From a virus: a stretch of DNA of 26,046 nt. The notes beneath the pieces were generated by a model. The model was given only the letters and a program-made list of their open reading frames with translations, ran no database searches and was not told where the DNA came from. The position numbers and the translations under genes were made by a program. The stretch is from IMG/VR virus record IMGVR_UViG_3300009182_000287, positions 1 to 26,046 of that record. One strand, 5' to 3'. Below are positions 1 to 11,282 of this stretch, one piece after another; the first letter of the stretch is position 1; the number at the start of each line of letters is the position of its first letter.

Positions 1-362
1 AAAAACTAAACGCAGAAGATAATACTGATGCGCTCTTAGCTGAAGCTGAATACATCTTCAACAATGCTGCCGAGTTTCTCGGTGGTGTTGAGGAAGAGTA
101 TCTCCTCGCAGCCTAAAAACTAATATCGGATCCTATTAAGGATATTAGGAGCTAATACAATAGGTTAGAGTGGTATCTACGACACTAGTAAAACAAGCGT
201 AGGGGGTAGATATAGACTCTTCACTATATCAGGCAGACTTTAAAAGATAGGTTGGTAAGCCACAGCAGCCTTTAGTCAACCAAATGCTAAACTTACATAA
301 GCGTGTAGAAGTATAGACTTAACATTGTAAACACAGGGGTTCGACTCCCCTCGCCTCCACCA
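1..362 (+). ncRNA. ssrA: tmRNA (3' part; 5' end lies outside the window)
   Basis: Transfer-messenger RNA rescues stalled ribosomes and tags the unfinished protein for proteolysis. The 3' end is a clear tRNA-like domain: a T arm of AGGGG, loop TTCGACT, CCCCT, then the 3' acceptor strand, discriminator A and an encoded CCA at 360-362. Upstream is an in-frame tag reading frame ending in Leu-Ala-Ala and a stop at 114-116. The 230 nt between would hold the pseudoknots. Tag and acceptor end lie in one continuous molecule, so this is the one-piece form rather than the two-piece form of alphaproteobacteria. The 5' acceptor strand is cut off by the window edge. Phage-borne tmRNAs are known but uncommon. 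Confidence 0.9.
12..116 (+). other. tmRNA tag-peptide reading frame (about 34 residues)
   Basis: Reading from a GCA resume codon at 12-14, the frame begins AEDNTDALLAEAEY and ends EEEYLLAA before a TAA at 114-116. The C-terminal LAA is the classic ClpXP-type degron. The resume context CTAAAC-GCA resembles that of bacterial tmRNAs. Most bacterial tags have about 8 to 15 residues, so about 34 acidic residues is long. The resume codon is inferred; the LAA end and stop are directly visible. Confidence 0.75.
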
Positions 363-2272: not shown

Positions 2273-2920
2273 TATATCTAAATCATCTTTAAAGATTATA
2301 GAATCGTGAGTTAAATTCAAAGAGTTCCAAATTTCTTCTCTTTTTTTCTTTGTTAGTTTACGAAGATCGGACGAATAACCACCTTTAATCATTTTTTCGT
2401 AAAATTCTGTTTTCAAAGGTATTTCAAGAAACTCATTTTTAAGTATAACTTCTCTGCCTAACGATACAAACCTATCAGCATTAGCATGTACGTTAAAAGG
2501 TTCTTGTAGCCATACTTCATTATTATTAAAATATGTTGGTTTAGGCATCTGTAAAATAAGAATAGTACTGTTTGAATATTTTTCTAATACGTCCCAAATA
2601 TTCGGTATTAAATGAAAGCTTTGTTTAAAGATTAAAAGATCAGGTTTAATATTATCATAATTTTGAAAATCTATATTTAAAAACTCAAACTCGTTCATAG
2701 TACGAAAATCTACATTATCTACTCCTATGAGATTAGTACAGTGAGATTTAAAACAACTTGTAAACGCACCTGTGCCACATCCTACATCTAAAATAGTATT
2801 AATAGGAAGTAGATTATATGAATTTAATAAACTAATACATTTCACAGCCCAATGGAATTCTCTGTTTGTAGAGTCACAAAATTCCTTCCAAAGTTTCCAG
2901 CTTTTTGAAGTTTCTTTCAT
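2258..2920 (-). CDS. class I SAM-dependent methyltransferase
   Basis: A 220-residue Rossmann-fold methyltransferase. Motif I is ILDVGCGTGAF (residues 43-53), the S-adenosylmethionine-binding glycine loop. The acidic ribose-binding residue is probably in LIGVDNV near 70, and motif IV is near KPDLLIFKQSFH (about 92-103). There are no target-recognition domains typical of DNA methyltransferases, so a small-molecule, RNA or protein substrate is as likely as DNA. It is transcribed alone from a sigma70-like promoter in the shared 2921-2975 region, divergently from the deaminase pair. Its C terminus overlaps the convergent gene at 2272. The substrate cannot be told from the sequence. Confidence 0.8.
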   Translation of the reverse strand: MKETSKSWKLWKEFCDSTNREFHWAVKCISLLNSYNLLPINTILDVGCGTGAFTSCFKSHCTNLIGVDNVDFRTMNEFEFLNIDFQNYDNIKPDLLIFKQSFHLIPNIWDVLEKYSNSTILILQMPKPTYFNNNEVWLQEPFNVHANADRFVSLGREVILKNEFLEIPLKTEFYEKMIKGGYSSDLRKLTKKKREEIWNSLNLTHDSIIFKDDLDILLVR

Positions 2921-2937
2921 ATATTATTTAATAAAGC

Positions 2938-2971
2938 TTGAATATTATAGCAAGAGTCTCTATAATATCAA
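2938..2971. promoter_or_regulatory. near-palindromic bidirectional sigma70-like promoter
   Basis: On the plus strand TTGAAT (2938-2943) is 17 nt from a perfect TATAAT (2961-2966). On the minus strand TTGATA (2971-2966) is 16 nt from a perfect TATAAT (2949-2944). The two promoters share one interval, the -35 of each lying just beyond the -10 of the other, because the DNA is an imperfect palindrome: CTTGAATATTATAG and CTATAATATCAAG around a 9-nt centre. The plus ATG is 10 nt from the -10 (leaderless or nearly so). The minus ATG is 24 nt away. Confidence 0.75.
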
Positions 2972-2975
2972 GAGA

Positions 2976-3386
2976 ATGAAGTACTTTAAGCGACTAGAAG
3001 AAATAGCTCAAAGTTTAGTTGGTTATAACTCTGATAGGCGTTGTAGACATTTTACCTTTATTTTGTATAAAAACCGATTAATTGCTACAGGTACAAATAA
3101 CACAAAAACACATCCCTTCAATCTTATTAATAGAAAGGTATCGAGAGTAACAGGAGAAGATTATTCTGATCAAAAGCACACCTGTTCTGAATTAAACGCT
3201 ATAATGAAGCTTAAACGTTTAACAAATATTGATACAAAAAAATGTATATTAATAAATATAAGATATGATAGAAACGATAAGGTAGCTTTAGCTAGACCTT
3301 GTCAAAGCTGTCAAAATCTATTACGTTATCATGAATTCAAACAAATTATCTGGTCAACTAATGATGGAAGTTACGGCTATGAATAA
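2976..3386 (+). CDS. cytidine-deaminase-fold protein (CSE / PCxxC zinc site)
   Basis: A 136-residue protein of the zinc-dependent deaminase superfamily. The catalytic motif is HTCSE with zinc ligand C70 and proton-shuttle E72, followed by PCQSC with ligands C109 and C112. A Cys first ligand is the arrangement of free cytidine deaminases, unlike the His of dCMP deaminases. The start at 2976 is preferred over a longer in-frame start at 2772, because the extension would run through the methyltransferase gene and promoter. It overlaps the next deaminase by 8 nt. The substrate (a nucleoside, a nucleic-acid cytosine, or something else) is unproven. Confidence 0.75.
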   Translation: MKYFKRLEEIAQSLVGYNSDRRCRHFTFILYKNRLIATGTNNTKTHPFNLINRKVSRVTGEDYSDQKHTCSELNAIMKLKRLTNIDTKKCILINIRYDRNDKVALARPCQSCQNLLRYHEFKQIIWSTNDGSYGYE

Positions 3387-3795
3387 CAGAATTGATTGGG
3401 ATACATACGCTCTTCGTTTAGCAGAAGTAGCAGCTCTTCGTTCTGAAGATCCTTTTGTACAAGTTGGTGCATGTGCTTTAGATAAAGATAATAGAGTGCT
3501 TGGTGTAGCCTATAACGGCTTAGCCCCTGGTAAGGTTGTAAATGACGTATTCTGGGCTGATAGAGATGGTAGACGGCCTTATATATTACATGCTGAAGTT
3601 AATTTACTAACAATGTTTAAACGTAATGAGGCTTATACTGTAGCATGCACTTTAATGCCTTGTTCATCGTGTGCTGCTCATATTGTAGCACATGGCGTTA
3701 AGAAAGTAATCTATAGGGATATCTATAGTAAAGATATAAAAGCTTTAGATATATTTGAGTTTTACAATATAGAAGTTAAACGAATAACATCTTAA
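3379..3795 (+). CDS. deoxycytidylate (dCMP) deaminase
   Basis: A 138-residue dCMP deaminase, turning dCMP into dUMP as substrate for thymidylate synthase. Zinc site: H71-A-E73, then P94-C95-S-S-C98. The N-terminal block IDWDTYALRLAEVAALRSED and AYNGLAPG are typical of the family. The start at 3379 is chosen over 3331 because it begins the conserved block and gives an 8-nt overlap (ATGAATAA) with the previous stop, which implies translational coupling. T4-like phages use this enzyme to balance the dNTP pool of AT-rich genomes. The 3' end overlaps the convergent gene by 4 nt. Confidence 0.88.
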   Translation: MNNRIDWDTYALRLAEVAALRSEDPFVQVGACALDKDNRVLGVAYNGLAPGKVVNDVFWADRDGRRPYILHAEVNLLTMFKRNEAYTVACTLMPCSSCAAHIVAHGVKKVIYRDIYSKDIKALDIFEFYNIEVKRITS

Positions 3796-4628
3796 CCAAA
3801 ATCTACACCGTAACCGTTACCGCCACCTGAACTATTGTAGTCTTTAATAGCAGCGCTAATTTCAGGGTCTTGTTCTGCATAACGTCTTGCTTCATTTCTA
3901 TCAGTAACAGCGGCTTCAGGTGTTTTGCTTGTTCCACTAGCATTAGCTTGAGACTCTAAAATACCTTTATTAATTAATTCCTTAAGATATTTTTTAACTT
4001 TACCGAGCTCAAGACCTGACATTTGAAGTTGTTTTACTATTTTAGAACCAGTATTTGTTTCTCCAGAAAGACCGCCAATCTTGTTATAAATTGAAAGAAG
4101 ATCACCAGTAAGAGTACCTGCTTTAATTTCATCATCACTCTTAATATAATAATCAACTTTCAAATCAAAATCTGTGTTTGTATCGATATGCTCTTCAGCA
4201 CTTACATCATCTTCAGCCTTATCAGCTACCTCTTCATATTCTCTTTCAGTAGGTTCAGGTTTTGACAGTGTAGTTGTACCGTCCCTTTCATCAGTAATAA
4301 TTTTAGCACTTCTAAGAGCTGTATGAATACGACGAGCAGCAAATTTTGCATTGGTCATATTAATACCAGCAACTTCTTTAACAATAGGTGCTATATCTTC
4401 TTCTTGAAACTCTTTAAATTTTTTATCGGAGTGACCGCCTAAAGTACGAAGTTTTTCAATTGTCTTACGAGCTACTTCTTTTGATTGTTCGGGAGTTAAA
4501 GCATAATCCACTCCCGCTGAAAACGTTGCTTCAGCTTCTTCACCTGTTCCTTCATAGTCTGGTGCAATATCAATAGGCATCATTTCTGAAATGAGGTTTT
4601 CGTAAAGAGAATCAAAAGAGTTTGTCAT
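3792..4628 (-). CDS. acidic protein with a putative capsid-targeting leader
   Basis: A 278-residue, strongly acidic protein of no recognised family. The N terminus FDSLYENLISE, then M16, fits the T4 capsid-targeting pattern with an (I/L)-x-E cleavage site at ISE (13-15). Two helical segments, about 45-110 and 185-225, look like small winged-helix modules (for example SKIVKQLQMSGLELGKVKKY, then LKELINKGILES). A Glu/Asp-rich linker lies between them and the C terminus is glycine-rich. It is the last gene of the long minus-strand operon. It could be a DNA-binding internal head protein or a scaffold component; this is inference. Confidence 0.65.
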   Translation of the reverse strand: MTNSFDSLYENLISEMMPIDIAPDYEGTGEEAEATFSAGVDYALTPEQSKEVARKTIEKLRTLGGHSDKKFKEFQEEDIAPIVKEVAGINMTNAKFAARRIHTALRSAKIITDERDGTTTLSKPEPTEREYEEVADKAEDDVSAEEHIDTNTDFDLKVDYYIKSDDEIKAGTLTGDLLSIYNKIGGLSGETNTGSKIVKQLQMSGLELGKVKKYLKELINKGILESQANASGTSKTPEAAVTDRNEARRYAEQDPEISAAIKDYNSSGGGNGYGVDFG

Positions 4629-5019: not shown

Positions 5020-5408
5020 TATGTATTAATAAATGCTGCCTTTTGATCAGATGACATAGATAAAAGGTTTTCGTTAAAATATTTCCAAAATTGTACTGGG
5101 TCTGGTGATGTTTTTATTACCGAAACGACATCTACATCATTACAATTTATCATTCGAAAATTTTGTAAAAAAATATCCCAGCAAGGTATTAAATTTTTAG
5201 CTGCTGGGTTATATTTTAAACTTCCATGAGATGGAGGATCATAATTAAGAATATTTCTTCCTAATTGAGAGTTAAGTAACTGAAAGTCATTAGTACATAA
5301 CATTCGTCTATAATCTTTATAACCGGGCTTTTCAATACGTCGTCTAAATCTTAATTCAACAACACTATTTTGAAGCATTATAGTTAATGCACCAATTCCT
5401 ATTCTCAC
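5019..5408 (-). CDS. WYL_2 / Sm-like SH3-fold protein (tentative)
   Basis: A 129-residue protein whose core (about residues 17-95) has a block RRRIEKPGYKDYRRMLCT and a later QNFRMINCNDVDVV. It resembles small phage proteins assigned to the WYL_2 Sm-like SH3 beta-barrel family, which have a conserved R-x-M-x-C/R-T and a final F-R-x-I strand. Function in phages is unknown. The start is a GTG that overlaps the previous stop (GTGA). An ATG lies at codon 11, so the first ten residues are uncertain. The 3' end overlaps the next ATG by one base. Confidence 0.6.
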   Translation of the reverse strand: MRIGIGALTIMLQNSVVELRFRRRIEKPGYKDYRRMLCTNDFQLLNSQLGRNILNYDPPSHGSLKYNPAAKNLIPCWDIFLQNFRMINCNDVDVVSVIKTSPDPVQFWKYFNENLLSMSSDQKAAFINT

Positions 5409-5839
5409 TTTTTCTTTTTAATTATTTTCTTCTCAGGTGTAGGCACCTCCTTTTTTATTGTTTCGCAAATACCAAAAATTCTATCTTCAGATAAGAAGAT
5501 CATCATCTTACCGTTACGTTGAAGCCCTTGAAGTCCACGATCACCAGGAAAGATAACTGTATCTCCAACCTTAACCTGTCTACAGGAAGGACCAGTAAGT
5601 TTAACTCTAGCTATACGCCACGCTCTATTATCAACAACTTGACCAGGTAGAATAATACCATTACGAATAAGACTCTTACCGTCTTCAGCTACATCTAAAT
5701 ACTCTACAGCAATAACATCAGCAAGTAGTTCTACAATTTCATAATCCTCTGGAAGAGGCATATCCTTGTAATCTTCTGGAGCAATACCATTATAGTTATT
5801 GTTTCCTAGATCTTGTTCAATAGGTGGTGGGTTACGCAT
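5405..5839 (-). CDS. GroES-like co-chaperonin (T4 gp31-type)
   Basis: A 144-residue protein with a GroES-like barrel. After a proline-rich N terminus, the core runs from EIVELLADVIAVEYLD (about 34-49), through RNGIILP (the mobile-loop region), ARVKLTGPS and KVGDTVIFPGDRG, to EDRIFGICE, matching GroES strand order. The tail is lysine-rich (EKKIIKKKK). T4 gp31 replaces host GroES on GroEL so that the major capsid protein can fold. The same role is likely here but not shown. Its neighbours are replication and nucleotide-modification genes, and the stop overlaps the next GTG start. Confidence 0.72.
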   Translation of the reverse strand: MRNPPPIEQDLGNNNYNGIAPEDYKDMPLPEDYEIVELLADVIAVEYLDVAEDGKSLIRNGIILPGQVVDNRAWRIARVKLTGPSCRQVKVGDTVIFPGDRGLQGLQRNGKMMIFLSEDRIFGICETIKKEVPTPEKKIIKKKK

Positions 5840-5847
5840 AAAATAAT

Positions 5848-6201
5848 TTATGTGACTTGTTCTTTAAGTTCAAGTAATTGTTTTATCTCTCTTTGTGATA
5901 GTTCCATATTAGAAGCTAATAATTCTACTTTGTTATCTTTTTCAGTCTTTTCAACTTTTATTTTCTTAATATAGTTAATCATTGGCATTCGATTAAACTT
6001 AGGAAATGCCGCTATAAGAAGCTTATAATGAATATTTTTATCTATGTTACCTAAGGAGTTTACTGTTTGATTAATAGCATTAGCTGCTTCATAAGAACTA
6101 AAAGCTAACCAACGATTAATAAGAAAAGGAACGTATTCTTCTAAAGGTAAGTTTCCTTTCTTTTTTACTAAAATATCTCCAAGGTAATCAAAGATTGTCA
6201 C
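5848..6201 (-). CDS. 62: clamp-loader small subunit (T4 gp62-like)
   Basis: A 117-residue protein resembling gp62, the small subunit of the T4-type sliding-clamp loader, which works with ATPase gp44 to load clamp gp45. The recognisable block is EEYVPFLINRWLAFSSYEAA, then a linker and NIHYKLLIAAFPKFNRMPMI. This is the gp62 signature of a Tyr-x-Pro-Phe-x-x-Asn-Arg stretch, then a second helix ending in basic residues. T4 gp62 is about 187 residues; marine-phage forms are shorter, as here. The start is GTG, overlapping the previous stop by four bases. gp44 and gp45 genes are not in this window. Confidence 0.7.
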   Translation of the reverse strand: MTIFDYLGDILVKKKGNLPLEEYVPFLINRWLAFSSYEAANAINQTVNSLGNIDKNIHYKLLIAAFPKFNRMPMINYIKKIKVEKTEKDNKVELLASNMELSQREIKQLLELKEQVT

Positions 6202-6785
6202 GCAATCGTTTTTGTTGTAGCTGTAAAGATGTCTTGAACCATTACCTGAAACATCTGAATAGCATCAACCATAAAAGCGTTAGAGGCTTCGTCGGTAAGG
6301 TGAGTAGAGTAAGCAAAATTAGGAGCCTTATTTCCAGCATTAATATTAATACCAACGTGAATAAGAACAGCACCATTTACATTAGTAGCAATAGACACAG
6401 AAGCCTTCTTAAATTCTTCTCCTTCCTTTACCATAATATCATCTCCATCTACGTAACCTTCCTTCTGAAGATACTTCGTACAAAGGAGTGAACCCAACTG
6501 AGCGTTATATAAACGCTGAAAGCAAACACCGGCAAAGAGATCAATATTAGGAATCTCAATAAGGAAGTTAATAGCTCTAATAGAGTAAATATAATCGTTA
6601 TTAATTGCATCTTCCAAGTCAATAAGATTAGTAGTAACTTCCATCGGAGCTTCAAATGCTACAATATTACCTACTGCACGGACATTTTTCTTGAAAAATT
6701 TATAAGCAAATCGCTGATGAAGCACTGCTCCATCATAGTAGTCACATCTTGTTATTGTCTTTAGTTCGTTACGGTTAATAATCAT
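6198..6785 (-). CDS. DUF366 family protein
   Basis: A 195-residue protein matching what I know of DUF366, a family best known from archaea: CDYYDGAVLHQRFAYKFF (about 14-31), IVAFEAPMEV, LIDLEDA, the SIRAINFLIE helix, CFQRLYNAQLGSLL, a DDIMV turn, and the late motif ASVSIATNVNGAVLIHVGIN. No biochemical role is established to my knowledge. It follows queC, a glutamine amidotransferase and a glycosyltransferase-like gene in one operon, so a step in 7-deazaguanine metabolism is the obvious guess. Its stop overlaps the gp62-like start by four bases. Confidence 0.75.
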   Translation of the reverse strand: MIINRNELKTITRCDYYDGAVLHQRFAYKFFKKNVRAVGNIVAFEAPMEVTTNLIDLEDAINNDYIYSIRAINFLIEIPNIDLFAGVCFQRLYNAQLGSLLCTKYLQKEGYVDGDDIMVKEGEEFKKASVSIATNVNGAVLIHVGININAGNKAPNFAYSTHLTDEASNAFMVDAIQMFQVMVQDIFTATTKTIA

Positions 6786-6794
6786 ATGTATATC

Positions 6795-7484
6795 TTATAC
6801 CCCTTTTGCTTTGTTGCAATAGACTTCTTTAAATTTCTTATTAGATTCTTCCCAATTATTTGTAAGCATTGAATCTCCTAGTCCGAAGTGAATAACGTTA
6901 ATAGGTAGTACACCCATACTGACATTATGCTTTTGACATTCTAGACAAAAAGCAAGATCGTAATGATGAAACGCAAACTCTTCATTAAAGCGTGCTGGTG
7001 TTGTCAGAATACGTTCAACATTAACAGCAAAGAATAAACCGTCCATTACAGTTACAGCTCCAGTAGTATCACCGAAGACAGTTGACCATATTTTACCGTC
7101 CTTAATATGTTTAACCTCCCCGCGTAAATGCTCTCGCTTTGACATTAAATGCCAAGCACATTTATCTTCCTGCAAACTAATTACAGTAGATCCCGCTAAA
7201 CCAGTAACTGTATAGTGAGACTTATTAAGATGTTCAACAAGGAAGAGAGTATCAAGAATAAGATCATCATGAACAAACAAAACAATCTTATCACTATTTT
7301 CATCAGTTATATAACGATTGTAAACAGTAGATAAACCTTCCTTGTTATCTCTTACAACATCAAAGTCAAACTCTTTTCGAGTATAAAAATCGTAATACTT
7401 CTTAAGAGACTTATAAATTGGTCTCTTTTGAAATTCTTCTTCTGTTTTTGCTTTAGTAGCTGTTACTAGTAGTACTTGTTTCAT
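6795..7484 (-). CDS. GT2-like glycosyltransferase
   Basis: A 229-residue protein of the nucleotide-diphosphosugar glycosyltransferase type (GT-A fold, family-2-like). An N-terminal strand MKQVLLVTAT, the helix STVYNRYIT (52-60) and the acidic metal/sugar site FVHDD (70-74) are followed by an acceptor-side motif FHHYDLAFCLECQ (about 168-180) and INVIHFGLG. It probably transfers a sugar to an unknown acceptor. Starting on the stop of the amidotransferase gene (ATGA), it is translated together with the deazaguanine genes. Modified DNA bases, a virion protein or a host surface glycan are all possible acceptors. Confidence 0.72.
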   Translation of the reverse strand: MKQVLLVTATKAKTEEEFQKRPIYKSLKKYYDFYTRKEFDFDVVRDNKEGLSTVYNRYITDENSDKIVLFVHDDLILDTLFLVEHLNKSHYTVTGLAGSTVISLQEDKCAWHLMSKREHLRGEVKHIKDGKIWSTVFGDTTGAVTVMDGLFFAVNVERILTTPARFNEEFAFHHYDLAFCLECQKHNVSMGVLPINVIHFGLGDSMLTNNWEESNKKFKEVYCNKAKGV

Positions 7485-8119
7485 AAATTATAGGGGTTGT
7501 CGTATTTAAAAATTTGATCTAGTTTAGGTTTTAATTTACCATCAATAAGCTCAAATATTAAACCGTCGTCATCAATAGGTTTGGATCCTTCAAATGATAC
7601 TGATGAAAAACTATTATTATTCATATGAAGAGAGCTACCCGCTTTAACAACCTTTAAGCTATTATAGTCATGATCGTAAACCCAGCTAGTTAATAAACCT
7701 TCATATTGTTCATATACTTTTTGTATATTTCCTTCATACTTTACTAAGTGATAGGGTATAATAGAACTATCAACAATAAACTCGGGATGTTCAGGAAATG
7801 TTTTAAAGTTAGTAATAATACCATTATGAGCTACATAGTACTGACCAAACTCAAAAGGATGACAATTACTTTCTGTAAAAACGGCTGAACTATTAGTAGG
7901 GGCTCTAGAATGATAAAGAAAGAATAACGGTTTATTAAGCTCGGTTACTATTTCTCTAAATAATTTTTCACCATCAAAAGGATCTTTTTGACGTTTTATT
8001 ACAACATTATTGTCACTATCAAAAGCTAAAAAACCAGATGAAAAATAGCCACGCTTAAGATTTTTTTCGTATAAATCCCAAGCTGTATCAAAATTAGATG
8101 ATCCGGCAATACCACACAT
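7481..8119 (-). CDS. class II glutamine amidotransferase (Gat partner of QueC)
   Basis: A 212-residue stand-alone Ntn-type glutaminase domain. The N terminus MCGIAG gives catalytic Cys2 after Met removal. Other expected residues are present: HSRAPT with R72, the oxyanion pair N99-G100 in AHNGIITN, and D117 in DSSII. There is no synthetase domain, so the ammonia must go to a partner. It lies 2 nt behind queC. In archaea and phages, Gat-QueC proteins fuse this domain to QueC and convert preQ0 with glutamine ammonia to the amidine of archaeosine. Here the same pair is split into two genes, so formation of archaeosine base or a related amide is the best guess. Confidence 0.8.
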   Translation of the reverse strand: MCGIAGSSNFDTAWDLYEKNLKRGYFSSGFLAFDSDNNVVIKRQKDPFDGEKLFREIVTELNKPLFFLYHSRAPTNSSAVFTESNCHPFEFGQYYVAHNGIITNFKTFPEHPEFIVDSSIIPYHLVKYEGNIQKVYEQYEGLLTSWVYDHDYNSLKVVKAGSSLHMNNNSFSSVSFEGSKPIDDDGLIFELIDGKLKPKLDQIFKYDNPYNL

Positions 8120-8121
8120 TA

Positions 8122-8814
8122 TTATATATTAATAGCATATGGAAGAGGATCAACTATTTCTGCTTTTTTAAATCCAGCTAATCTAGCTGCGCACGACGGA
8201 CATATCCCACAGCTTAATTCTCTTCCTTCGTAGCAAGTCCAAGTCTGATCAAACTTTACCCTTAAATCAACACCCATTTCAATAATTTCTTTCTTTGTCT
8301 TGTAGAGAAGAGGGGCCTGAATTTGAATACGATTCATTCTATTAAGAGCAAGACAGTTATTAATATGCTCAAGAAACTCTGAAGTACAGTCCCAGTAACC
8401 TGAAAGATTATCTACAGCTACAGCTCCGTAATAAACATCAGTAGCCCCTACTGCTTCAGCATAAGAACAAGCAATAGATAGTAGCATCATATTTCTATTA
8501 GGAACATAAGTAACAGGCTGAGCTTCACCAATAATGTCTTTCATCTTCGGCACATCAATATCATCAGAAGTAAGCGCTGAAGCCGGAACAAGGTTTCTAA
8601 AGAATTTTAAATCAATAACTTTATGCTCTTTTACTTTAGAGCCATGATAGCAATGGTTATTGTACATATAGCTCTCTGCTACAATTATTTCTTTCTTATG
8701 ACGCTGATTATAATCAAACGTTAGAGCATAAACTTCATCATGATTTTTAATACAGTGTTCTAAAAGAACAGTCGAATCCATTCCACCACTATAAACAACT
8801 ACAGCTTTAGACAT
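8122..8814 (-). CDS. queC: 7-cyano-7-deazaguanine (preQ0) synthase QueC
   Basis: A 230-residue QueC, the normal length. QueC uses ATP and ammonia to turn 7-carboxy-7-deazaguanine into preQ0, the shared precursor of queuosine, archaeosine and 7-deazaguanine DNA bases. The PP-loop SGGMDS is at 9-14, TYVPNRNMMLLSIA is typical, and the zinc site is C194, C202, C205, C208 (SCGICPSC). It is the first gene of the minus operon, behind a sigma70-like promoter. In phages, preQ0 genes usually serve genome modification against restriction; queD, queE, folE and a DpdA transglycosylase are not in this window. Confidence 0.93.
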   Translation of the reverse strand: MSKAVVVYSGGMDSTVLLEHCIKNHDEVYALTFDYNQRHKKEIIVAESYMYNNHCYHGSKVKEHKVIDLKFFRNLVPASALTSDDIDVPKMKDIIGEAQPVTYVPNRNMMLLSIACSYAEAVGATDVYYGAVAVDNLSGYWDCTSEFLEHINNCLALNRMNRIQIQAPLLYKTKKEIIEMGVDLRVKFDQTWTCYEGRELSCGICPSCAARLAGFKKAEIVDPLPYAINI

Positions 8815-8821
8815 ATTAAAG

Positions 8822-8849
8822 AGTATATATTACTCTTATAGGTTATCAA
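8822..8849 (-). promoter_or_regulatory. sigma70-like promoter of the queC operon
   Basis: On the minus strand, TTGATA (8849-8844) is 16 nt from TATACT (8827-8822), and the queC ATG begins 7 nt beyond the -10. The -10 overlaps a small palindrome, AGAGTA-5 nt-TACTCT (8820-8836), which could be an operator. The spacing predicts a leaderless mRNA. Confidence 0.5.
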
Positions 8850-8858
8850 GTATAAGAA

Positions 8859-11282
8859 TTAAACAGGATACAATATACCCATAGATATAACCCTACCTGT
8901 GATACTTGAATACGGATTTGTACTAGCAACGTAAGCAGTTTCTTGCCATACAGATACCGTTTCACCCGCTAGTGCTATAACTTTAGGTGATGTAGCAGCT
9001 ACAGATGCTGTATTACTTACATACGCCCCTACACCTAATGTAGTATTAGAACTTAAACTGACTTGCTGAGTCATTTGTGTACCATTAGGTGCTGGATTTG
9101 AAGAACTACTAGCATTACCTTTAACCATTCGAAATGATGGTAAATTATCGAGAGGTGCCCCAGGACCCGGTGCTGGGGCATTACCTACTGTATCAACAAT
9201 TACATTAATATTTTCAAGCAATAGATTATATCCTGTAGGAACAAGATAAAGATTAGCTACTGAACTACTGATATTTGTATTCTTAAAATTAAGAGTTGGT
9301 GATATAAGCGAAATAACAGAAGTACCAACATTATTTAATATGATACCTGCCGCACTAATATTACCGGATACAGTTAGCTTATTATTTGGTCTATCGGTTC
9401 CAACACCGAGATTACCGTTTACGTCAATACCGGTAGCGGTGACCGATGGTAATGCACCAAACGATGTAGATGTAACAAGCTTATTATTAACTTCATCATA
9501 GGTAATATTAAAACCGGATAAAGAATTAATCGGTGCAGCAGCAGTACCGTCTCCTCTTTCACCAATAAACAATACTGGGTTAACACCATCATTAGGAGTA
9601 GAGTGCTCAAGATTAATATAACGTGATGAAATAGATGTAGTAAAAAGAGTTGCAGTTTTAGTTGTACCTATACTGCTAAGATTATTTACGTAGGTAAAGT
9701 TAGCTTGAGAAGCGGATAAATTTGACCCTAAAATAAATGTATTATCAAAAGAAGTATAATTACTAGAACCTCCAGCAACGAAAGAGTAATTAGTATTAAG
9801 AATTAAATTTGATTGACCGCCTGCTATATTTGAAGTATTACTATTATTAATAGTATTTGATCTACCACCATTTACTATTGAATAATTACTATTTACTGTA
9901 TTATCTCTTCCTCCAAGGGTAGAAGCATACTGACCCGATGCTGTATTATTTAAACCTCCACCAACGACTGCGCCACTATTGCTAGCAGTATTACCGTAAC
10001 CACCAACAACTGAACTCGCCCATCCAGAAGCTGTATTACTCCACCCTCCACCAATGTGAGTGTAACCGCTGAGAGCAGTATTTAAACTACCACCACCGAT
10101 GCTTGACCAAGCACTGAGAGCTCTATTATTAGATCCGCCAGTAACAGTGGTAGCTAAATCTTTAGCGTCATTACCGTAACCGCCACCAACGTGTGCGTAA
10201 GCACTTATTGCAGTGTTTAGAGTACCGCCACCAATATTAGAATATAAACCACTAGCTACATTTGTACCACTTAACGGTAAAATAGAGCCTGTATTACTAC
10301 CTGTTATATAAGGGCTAAATGTAGCATTATTATTAATACCGTAAATAATACCTGTTGCACTTAAATTTTTAACAGTTAAAGTACTATCACTATAGATATT
10401 ACCTGTTGCACTTAAATTACCTACATTTATAGTAATAGCGCTTAAAGTTTTGACATTTAAAGTATCACTATAGGTGGTGCCTATAGCACTCAATGTATTT
10501 ACGGTTATAGTAGTAGCACTTAATGTTTTAATAGTTGCACTACCCTCACTGTAGATAGTACCTGTTGCACTTAAATTTCTAACAACAAGTGTAGTATCAA
10601 ATGATAATTTGACGGAACTAACGAATGCAACACCACTTAATGCTAAATTAGCGTTTGCTAAAGTTAAATTAGCTGCTGTTAAGCTTGCATTAGAAACCGT
10701 TAATGCGTTTGCAGCACTAAGTATAGCACCTTGAACTGTATTAAAGGCAGATGTAGCTGTACTAAAGGCTAAATTAGAAGTAGCATTAGCTGTATTAGCT
10801 GTACCAGCAGCTGCATTCCAAGAGACATAATTAGCATTAACAAGATTATAAGCGGTATCCCAGTTTATATTATTGCCACTAGTGCCTACTTTAATAGTGC
10901 TTAAGTTGCTTATGTTGGTAACAAAAAGGTTAATGGCACTAAGATTAGTAGCAGTGAGACTAACAGTTTTTATTAATCCGTTAGAATAAACGTTAGCAGC
11001 ACTAATATTACCACCAGCTGTTATATTATTATTTACAGTTAAATTACTAATATTAATATTAGAAATATTAAAACTACTAACTGATATATTTGAAGCTGTT
11101 AAATTATTAACAGTAATATTATTAGCGCTAATTAAACCTGTGAACGAAAAATTATTATTAATTGTACCACTATTATCAGAAGGAAATGTTATACTATTTG
11201 CTGATAAAGAAACAGCACTTAATGCGGAAAACTCGTTAGCACCACCTTGAATCATTGATGCGTTTAAGTACGTAATAGACAT
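8859..11282 (-). CDS. tail fibre / adhesin with YadA-like head repeats
   Basis: An 807-residue, Ser/Asn/Ala-rich fibre protein. The N-terminal half is a low-complexity series of NLTAxNI- and LSA-type beta repeats, with about three 27-residue copies around residues 227-317 (LSATGTIYS, LSAIGTTYS, LSATGNIYS). Residues about 335-520 contain roughly ten 15-residue repeats of the YadA/haemagglutinin head type (for example IGGGSLNTALSG, IGGGWSNTASGW), which form a trimeric beta-roll. A later stretch, GNLGVGTDRPNNKLTVSGNI, is the collar-like motif also found in the next gene. It probably binds the host surface. No C-terminal self-cleaving chaperone is visible. Confidence 0.85.
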   Translation of the reverse strand: MSITYLNASMIQGGANEFSALSAVSLSANSITFPSDNSGTINNNFSFTGLISANNITVNNLTASNISVSSFNISNINISNLTVNNNITAGGNISAANVYSNGLIKTVSLTATNLSAINLFVTNISNLSTIKVGTSGNNINWDTAYNLVNANYVSWNAAAGTANTANATSNLAFSTATSAFNTVQGAILSAANALTVSNASLTAANLTLANANLALSGVAFVSSVKLSFDTTLVVRNLSATGTIYSEGSATIKTLSATTITVNTLSAIGTTYSDTLNVKTLSAITINVGNLSATGNIYSDSTLTVKNLSATGIIYGINNNATFSPYITGSNTGSILPLSGTNVASGLYSNIGGGTLNTAISAYAHVGGGYGNDAKDLATTVTGGSNNRALSAWSSIGGGSLNTALSGYTHIGGGWSNTASGWASSVVGGYGNTASNSGAVVGGGLNNTASGQYASTLGGRDNTVNSNYSIVNGGRSNTINNSNTSNIAGGQSNLILNTNYSFVAGGSSNYTSFDNTFILGSNLSASQANFTYVNNLSSIGTTKTATLFTTSISSRYINLEHSTPNDGVNPVLFIGERGDGTAAAPINSLSGFNITYDEVNNKLVTSTSFGALPSVTATGIDVNGNLGVGTDRPNNKLTVSGNISAAGIILNNVGTSVISLISPTLNFKNTNISSSVANLYLVPTGYNLLLENINVIVDTVGNAPAPGPGAPLDNLPSFRMVKGNASSSSNPAPNGTQMTQQVSLSSNTTLGVGAYVSNTASVAATSPKVIALAGETVSVWQETAYVASTNPYSSITGRVISMGILYPV
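9715..10275 (-). repeat. YadA-head-type 15-residue coding repeats
   Basis: This stretch encodes about ten diverged copies of a 15-residue unit with a central GG and a following Asn (consensus roughly aromatic-x-x-I/V-G-G-G-x-x-N-T-A-x-S). One copy is twice as long (through YGNDAKDLATTVTGGSNN). Copies differ at the codon level, so the array is old rather than a fresh tandem expansion. Confidence 0.75.

Follow-up and report, generated by a model that had tools for sequence, protein, structure and literature searches.

The 26,046-nt IMG/VR virus record IMGVR_UViG_3300009182_000287, analysed in its entirety and referred to as the window, encodes QueC, a stand-alone class II glutamine amidotransferase (GAT), a GT-A fold glycosyltransferase (GT) and a DUF366 protein within a single operon. 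These genes probably form one part of a pathway that modifies DNA with 7-deazaguanine; the family of T4-like phages that carries them is known here only from metagenomes. A role in phage 7-deazaguanine DNA modification is well supported, because long relatives with this block carry a DpdA3-type DNA transglycosylase and mostly also FolE or FolE2, QueD and QueE. Such a route had been proposed in a first-pass annotation of the window made from the letters alone, and the long relatives, some of which add QueF and a formyltransferase, bear it out. Split QueC-GAT pairs are already known from KVP40-type vibriophages; the link of DUF366 to QueC is an unexpected result.

The QueC operon and its relatives

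No end repeats were reported for the record, and the window is probably a 26-kb fragment, with the bulk of the genome lying outside. The operon consists of the following genes, given with the E-values of their profile matches:

8122..8814, minus strand: QueC, 7-cyano-7-deazaguanine (preQ0) synthase (PF06508, 1e-62; TIGR00364, 3e-56; motifs)
7481..8119, minus strand: stand-alone class II glutamine amidotransferase, GAT (phrog_4736, 2e-11; GlmS, PurF and AsnB profile matches)
6795..7484, minus strand: GT-A fold glycosyltransferase, GT (PF13712, 3e-8; AlphaFold model; Foldseek)
6198..6785, minus strand: DUF366 protein with a biotin/lipoate-ligase fold (PF04017, 8.5e-23; structure model)
5848..6201, minus strand: clamp-loader small subunit (gp62-like), a replication gene of the same operon (phrog_225, 4.5e-9)
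5405..5839, minus strand: GroES-like co-chaperonin, gp31-like (phrog_3188, 9e-7; PF00166, 0.003, below cut-off)

The spacings previously given for the first four genes were confirmed: QueC and GAT are two separate, unfused open reading frames (ORFs) with 2 nt between them, GAT and GT share a 4-nt ATGA overlap, and DUF366 follows GT after 9 nt. The operon extends past DUF366, which the first-pass annotation had missed, through a 4-nt overlap with the clamp-loader-like gene and on to the GroES-like gene. The synteny of these last two genes is kept in relatives.

QueC looks intact, with all motifs that are important in Escherichia coli QueC present in its sequence. The QueC signature consists of SGGxDS, YxQxHxxE, VPxRN, YPDC and a Cys4 zinc motif with a Tyr after the first Cys, and these motifs were shown to matter in the E. 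coli enzyme (PMC13329287). In the window they read SGGMDS, YNQRHKKE, VPNRN, YWDC (Pro to Trp relative to the canonical YPDC) and CY..C..C..C, the zinc motif being CYEGRELSCGICPSC with a spacing of 7, not 8. The protein exceeds the TIGR00364 cut-off and conforms to the canonical PF06508 signature. The GAT had been described as having a complete set of catalytic residues, and this agrees with the conservation of its class II features, namely Cys2, the HSRAPT motif, HNG and Asp. Among 12 homologues, Thr75, Asn99, Gly100 and Asp117 are invariant, and Cys2 and His98 nearly so. Its match to GATase_6 (3.8e-5) is under the Pfam cut-off, and its family profile finds GlmS (6e-12), PurF and AsnB in the PDB. 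QueC is the neighbour of GAT in most relatives, as it is in vibriophages of the KVP40 type, and preQ0 synthesis is the most likely function of the pair. In some phages, GATs are found under features named amidoligase; a function as an amidoligase partner is less likely, as GAT pairs with QueC here, in the KVP40 group and in Vibrio phage 2.275.O. The GAT C-termini read NPYNL, NPYEL or NPYFL (window 7481-7500), and a kinase adjoining QueF in the relative G003 (157467-158027) ends in NNPYEL.

Viral relatives, about 50 loci, were collected by using the GT, DUF366 and an alignment of GTs as scan queries, and 49 GT loci were scored; relatives searches with the window GAT or MoxR-like protein as the query returned none. 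The IMG/VR relatives contain the syntenic block QueC-GAT-GT-DUF366-clamp loader-GroES. As a variation on this order, loci L007 and L010 have several kb, including large fibre-like ORFs, between QueC and GAT, with GAT, GT and DUF366 staying together.

A DpdA3-type DNA transglycosylase was found in all five long contigs with QueC, GAT and GT (91-227 kb): G003 (218 kb), G012 (227 kb), G013 (128 kb), G018 (91 kb) and G027 (122 kb). G003 also encodes FolE2 (2e-72), QueF, a formyltransferase (6e-10), a nucleotide-kinase-like protein, two copies of QueD and one QueE, and its transglycosylase shares 45.7% identity with the annotated DpdA of Flavobacterium phage immuto. G012 and G013 contain QueC, GAT, GT, DUF366, QueD, QueE, FolE2 and DpdA3; QueF was not found in the stretches read of these two contigs (G013 in part). 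G018 and G027 combine QueC, GAT and GT with DpdA3, the formyltransferase, the kinase and QueF. FolE or FolE2, QueD and QueE are thus all present in G003, G012, G013 and G027; the partial, 91-kb contig G018 showed none of them.

A DpdA3 profile search matched G012, G013, G018 and others; the G012 match has one in-frame stop, and an open 285-aa ORF spans nearly all of it. The Pfam profile of tRNA-guanine transglycosylase (TGT), PF01702, did not match the DpdA of the relatives, a test that is insensitive, as KVP40 and 2.275.O also go without a match, and alignment to bacterial TGT with hhalign fails even for the known DpdA of phage 9g. The basis of the DpdA3 assignment is therefore homology to phage genes annotated as DpdA. 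We take DpdA3, DpdN and fdPreQ1 to be the names that apply to these enzymes and their product. Some DpdA3 phages reportedly replace guanine completely, and DpdN is said to formylate dPreQ1.

The DpdA3 profile had no match in the 210-kb contig G010, in which QueC, GAT, QueD and QueE are absent as well, and we count this joint absence in favour of a shared pathway. G010 does have a divergent FolE2 (156559-157428) beside an ssb-like gene. Its CPCSK motif reads CPTSK, and the gene may be left over from a pathway since lost.

In the route that we propose, FolE2 (or FolE), QueD and QueE, with genes in other parts of the genome, would make 7-carboxy-7-deazaguanine (CDG). GAT would pass glutamine-derived ammonia to QueC, and QueC would make preQ0, which in some relatives QueF and the formyltransferase may carry to preQ1 and then formyl-preQ1. 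The DpdA3-type transglycosylase would replace guanine in DNA by the deazaguanine, leading to protection from restriction. DUF366 may act with the QueC step by binding or handling an acid, amide or adenylate, while the GT would be a co-transcribed core gene of the phage family that probably does not act specifically on the deazaguanine base.

Several observations weigh against this proposal. DpdA, FolE, QueD and QueE are all absent from the 26-kb window, and its closest relatives (>85% GT identity) are likewise fragments. We infer, rather than observe, that GAT supplies ammonia to QueC. The compact DpdA3 clusters L096-L098 contain no GAT, GT or DUF366 in the stretch examined, and therefore none of these three is required for the pathway as such. 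Finally, in L014 a DUF366 gene with intact motifs precedes the clamp loader in a 25-kb contig that has no QueC or GAT.

DUF366 and the QueC step

The window DUF366 scores 81.2 bits against PF04017, for which the gathering score is 29.9. Its structure model (predicted local distance difference test, pLDDT, of 90) matches the DUF366 structure of Pyrococcus horikoshii (2ddz) with a Z-score of 20.9, followed by biotin ligases with Z-scores of about 12-13 over approximately 160 residues. A bacterial DUF366 also matches an NCBIfam biotin ligase model at 2e-4, under the cut-off. The KWPND motif with the catalytic lysine of biotin ligases appears to be replaced in DUF366 by a stretch that reads VDGDD and has no lysine. 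The modelled fold suggests that DUF366 may bind an acid or an adenylate.

When bacterial and archaeal genomes were scanned with DUF366, 80 loci were returned, nearly all in records titled as Vampirovibrio or Gastranaerophilales. DUF366 is also present in the archaea M. jannaschii and M. acetivorans. QueC precedes DUF366 on the same strand in 74 of the 80 Melainabacteria loci, with a median overlap of 3 nt, and one QueC adjoining a bacterial DUF366 passes TIGR00364. These loci mostly belong to one order and count as about one conserved operon. The QueC-DUF366 pair of Gastranaerophilales, in which DUF366 directly follows QueC, resembles the phage block, but a GAT-like gene is not among the common neighbours there. 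Because the hosts have TGT (20 of the 20 DUF366-carrying genomes checked) and mostly QueF (18/20), a queuosine-type use in tRNA is likely in these Gastranaerophilales.

The DLED and GDD motifs of DUF366 are kept in the GAT-positive phage loci of the GT set, with the exception of L007, where the DUF366 ORF is split and the tested piece lacks GDD. None of the six DUF366 loci without GAT (L042, L043, L045, L046, L056 and L079), which represent at least two lineages, retains either motif. Based on the phage operons, the pairing with QueC in bacteria and the loss of motifs where QueC-GAT is absent, we infer that DUF366 is an accessory at or near the QueC step. Replacement of QueD or FolE by DUF366 was rejected, as G003, G012, G013 and G027 also carry QueD and a FolE.

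The literature searched by the DUF366 name or Pfam number described no function for this family, which has a solved archaeal structure. The connection with the step of deazaguanine synthesis that QueC performs, for which the phage operons, the bacterial operon and the motif loss are independent lines of evidence, gives a prediction that is testable in phage DNA and in bacterial tRNA.

Further observations concern individual DUF366 loci. In L014, the region directly upstream of DUF366 (5927-9980) contains, by eye, transketolase-like, HldE-like kinase, cytidylyltransferase-like and epimerase-like ORFs, so that sugar-nucleotide-like genes stand where other phages have QueC-GAT-GT. The DUF366 of L010 (10001-10588) is 95% identical to that of the window and the adjoining GT 75%, which points to recombination within the block. 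A tblastn search with DUF366 in 50,697 phage records gave one match, in a bacterial-looking record: MW495066.1 107552-125938 (L002), Microcystis phage MaAM05, 274 kb. Besides secF, glyS, fabI and fliM, the stretch carries a DUF366 with 99-100% identity to the Vampirovibrio protein. The record is apparently a contig of bacterial origin that was deposited under a phage name.

The glycosyltransferase

The GT matches PF13712 above the cut-off, and its AlphaFold model (pLDDT 94) has a GT-A fold. The best PDB matches of the model are 2qgi and 2nxv (template modelling score of 0.69), with a Foldseek E-value of 1e-9 to 2qgi with UDP; both are structures of majastridin, which is not known to have an acceptor. 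The acidic metal motif HDD is invariant across 15 homologues. With ratios of non-synonymous to synonymous substitution rates (dN/dS) of 0.06-0.09, the GT is under strong purifying selection.

Among the 49 scored loci, a GAT is found near the GT in 23 and a DpdA-like gene in three, and most of these genes end 4 nt inside the GT start. With GAT so often near the GT and mostly ending at this position, their adjacency is not due to chance. In a tree of 47 GT rows, the window falls within a well-supported clade of GAT-positive phages. The larger clade around it also contains L042 and L043, where the GT persists without QueC-GAT, as well as L045, L046 and L056, where a divergent DpdA-like gene (profile E-value of 1.5e-16 to DpdA3) overlaps the GT start. 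In L045, a small P-loop kinase-like ORF (2913-3338) overlaps the divergent DpdA-like ORF (3335-4126), which in turn overlaps the GT. In another clade, of 16 rows, the GT comes before the clamp loader, and QueC, GAT and DUF366 are all absent from the flanks examined. A tblastn search with the GT in the 50,697 phage records gave zero matches. As the GT is kept without the pathway genes and is under strong purifying selection, it is a functional core gene of the phage group, independent of the deazaguanine pathway.

This independence is one of the points in favour of the GT decorating a phage or host protein or a surface sugar (fibre, capsid or receptor), with its place in the operon owing to chance or to expression timing. 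The window has two fibre-like genes immediately upstream, fibre-like ORFs occur between QueC and GAT in L007 and L010, and the closest solved fold, majastridin, is not known to have an acceptor. The GT neighbours that recur across lineages are nevertheless GAT, DUF366, the clamp loader and a replicative-helicase-like gene (L072, L074 and L078), not fibres. Taken together, we regard decoration of a protein or surface as a serious contender, at a little under an even chance.

The first-pass annotation had instead raised the possibility that the GT attaches a sugar to 7-deazaguanine in DNA, which would yield a hypermodified, glycosylated deazaguanine. The gene arrangement is in keeping with this part of the proposal: most of the GAT-positive loci have a GAT that runs 4 nt into the GT, the DpdA3-like gene overlaps the GT likewise in L045, L046 and L056, the GT is conserved at a low dN/dS among replication and base-modification genes, and it is present in all five long DpdA3 contigs with QueC-GAT. 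The distribution of the GT does not fit. A DNA base glycosyltransferase would be expected to be restricted to the modified-base pathway, but the GT is retained in G010 and, judging from the flanks examined, in the 16-row clade without QueC, GAT, QueD, QueE or DpdA. Conversely, it is lacking in the deazaguanine phages immuto, CP220, KVP40, 2.275.O and 9g, all of which were searched. The end products also vary among GT carriers, as QueF and the formyltransferase are present or absent, and a glycosylated deazaguanine in DNA is not described in the literature searched. We therefore consider glycosylation of the base unlikely; if true, it would represent a new class of DNA hypermodification.

End products and neighbouring genes

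The combination of QueC with a class II amidotransferase had also been compared with the fused Gat-QueC of Enterobacteria phage 9g, which would imply that the split proteins make archaeosine (dG+) in DNA, the product of 9g (PMC6884629). The same two enzyme classes are involved, there is a weak match of GAT to the 9g Gat (hhalign probability 89, E-value of 2e-6), and G012 and G013 have DpdA3 with QueF not found in the stretches read. However, the pair is split in the window, the DpdA of 9g is different, and DNA measurements on phages with split QueC-GAT revealed mainly other bases. Phage 6E351A of PMC12028318, which we take to be the record 6E35.1a, has QueF and shows a 15% modification of dG that is consistent with dPreQ1, and the DNA of phage nt-1 contains mainly dPreQ0, some dADG and a trace of dG+ (PMC6884629). 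QueF, a consumer of free preQ0, is moreover found in G003, G018 and G027. The analogy thus did not hold, archaeosine is an improbable product here, and a split QueC-amidotransferase pair should not be taken as a sign of it. That the genes boost queuosine in host tRNA instead of modifying DNA is very doubtful and was rejected as their sole role: QueC, QueD, QueE, QueF and FolE are common to the queuosine pathway and some phages carry queuosine-pathway genes without DpdA (PMC6884629), but DpdA3 co-occurs in all five long QueC-GAT-GT contigs.

The pathway that we favour, DNA modification through a DpdA3-type enzyme, shares components with several isolated phages. The KVP40/nt-1/6E35.1a-type Schizotequatrovirus phages are T4-like and encode QueC and GAT separately, in genes that adjoin or overlap and that lie beside or near FolE, QueD and often also QueF, with a GroES-like gp31 nearby. 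Split QueC-GAT is present across these vibriophages, and GAT directly follows QueC in both KVP40 and 2.275.O, inside deazaguanine clusters with QueF. Unlike the window family, the KVP40 type has another transglycosylase (KVP40.0122, read as DpdA2), a type I FolE and neither GT nor DUF366. Flavobacterium phage immuto has the gene order DpdA-formyltransferase-kinase-QueF seen in G003, but it has a type I FolE where G003 has FolE2, and it contains no GT or DUF366. Similarly, Campylobacter phages CP220 and CPt10 carry a DpdA-like gene that is 43-46% identical to the G003 transglycosylase, with an adjoining kinase, but no GT or DUF366. The T4-like group described here, which has no isolate among the 50,697 records, is predicted to modify guanine via DpdA3.

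Further T4-like features of the window are two dCMP-deaminase-like genes and genes for Hsp20, a VWA protein, a MoxR-like ATPase and tail-fibre proteins. In G027, an additional ORF between the clamp loader and GroES (33636-34277) resembles, by eye, a 2-oxoglutarate-dependent oxygenase. The 3' part of a tmRNA gene lies at window positions 1-362, truncated by the start of the record (Rfam RF00023, 54.5 bits; no ARAGORN call), and is followed by tRNA-Glu and tRNA-Cys. An HNH endonuclease gene at 666-1025 has 98-99% protein identity to its counterparts in L005 and L007, far exceeding that of most flanking genes, which makes recent homing or transfer likely.

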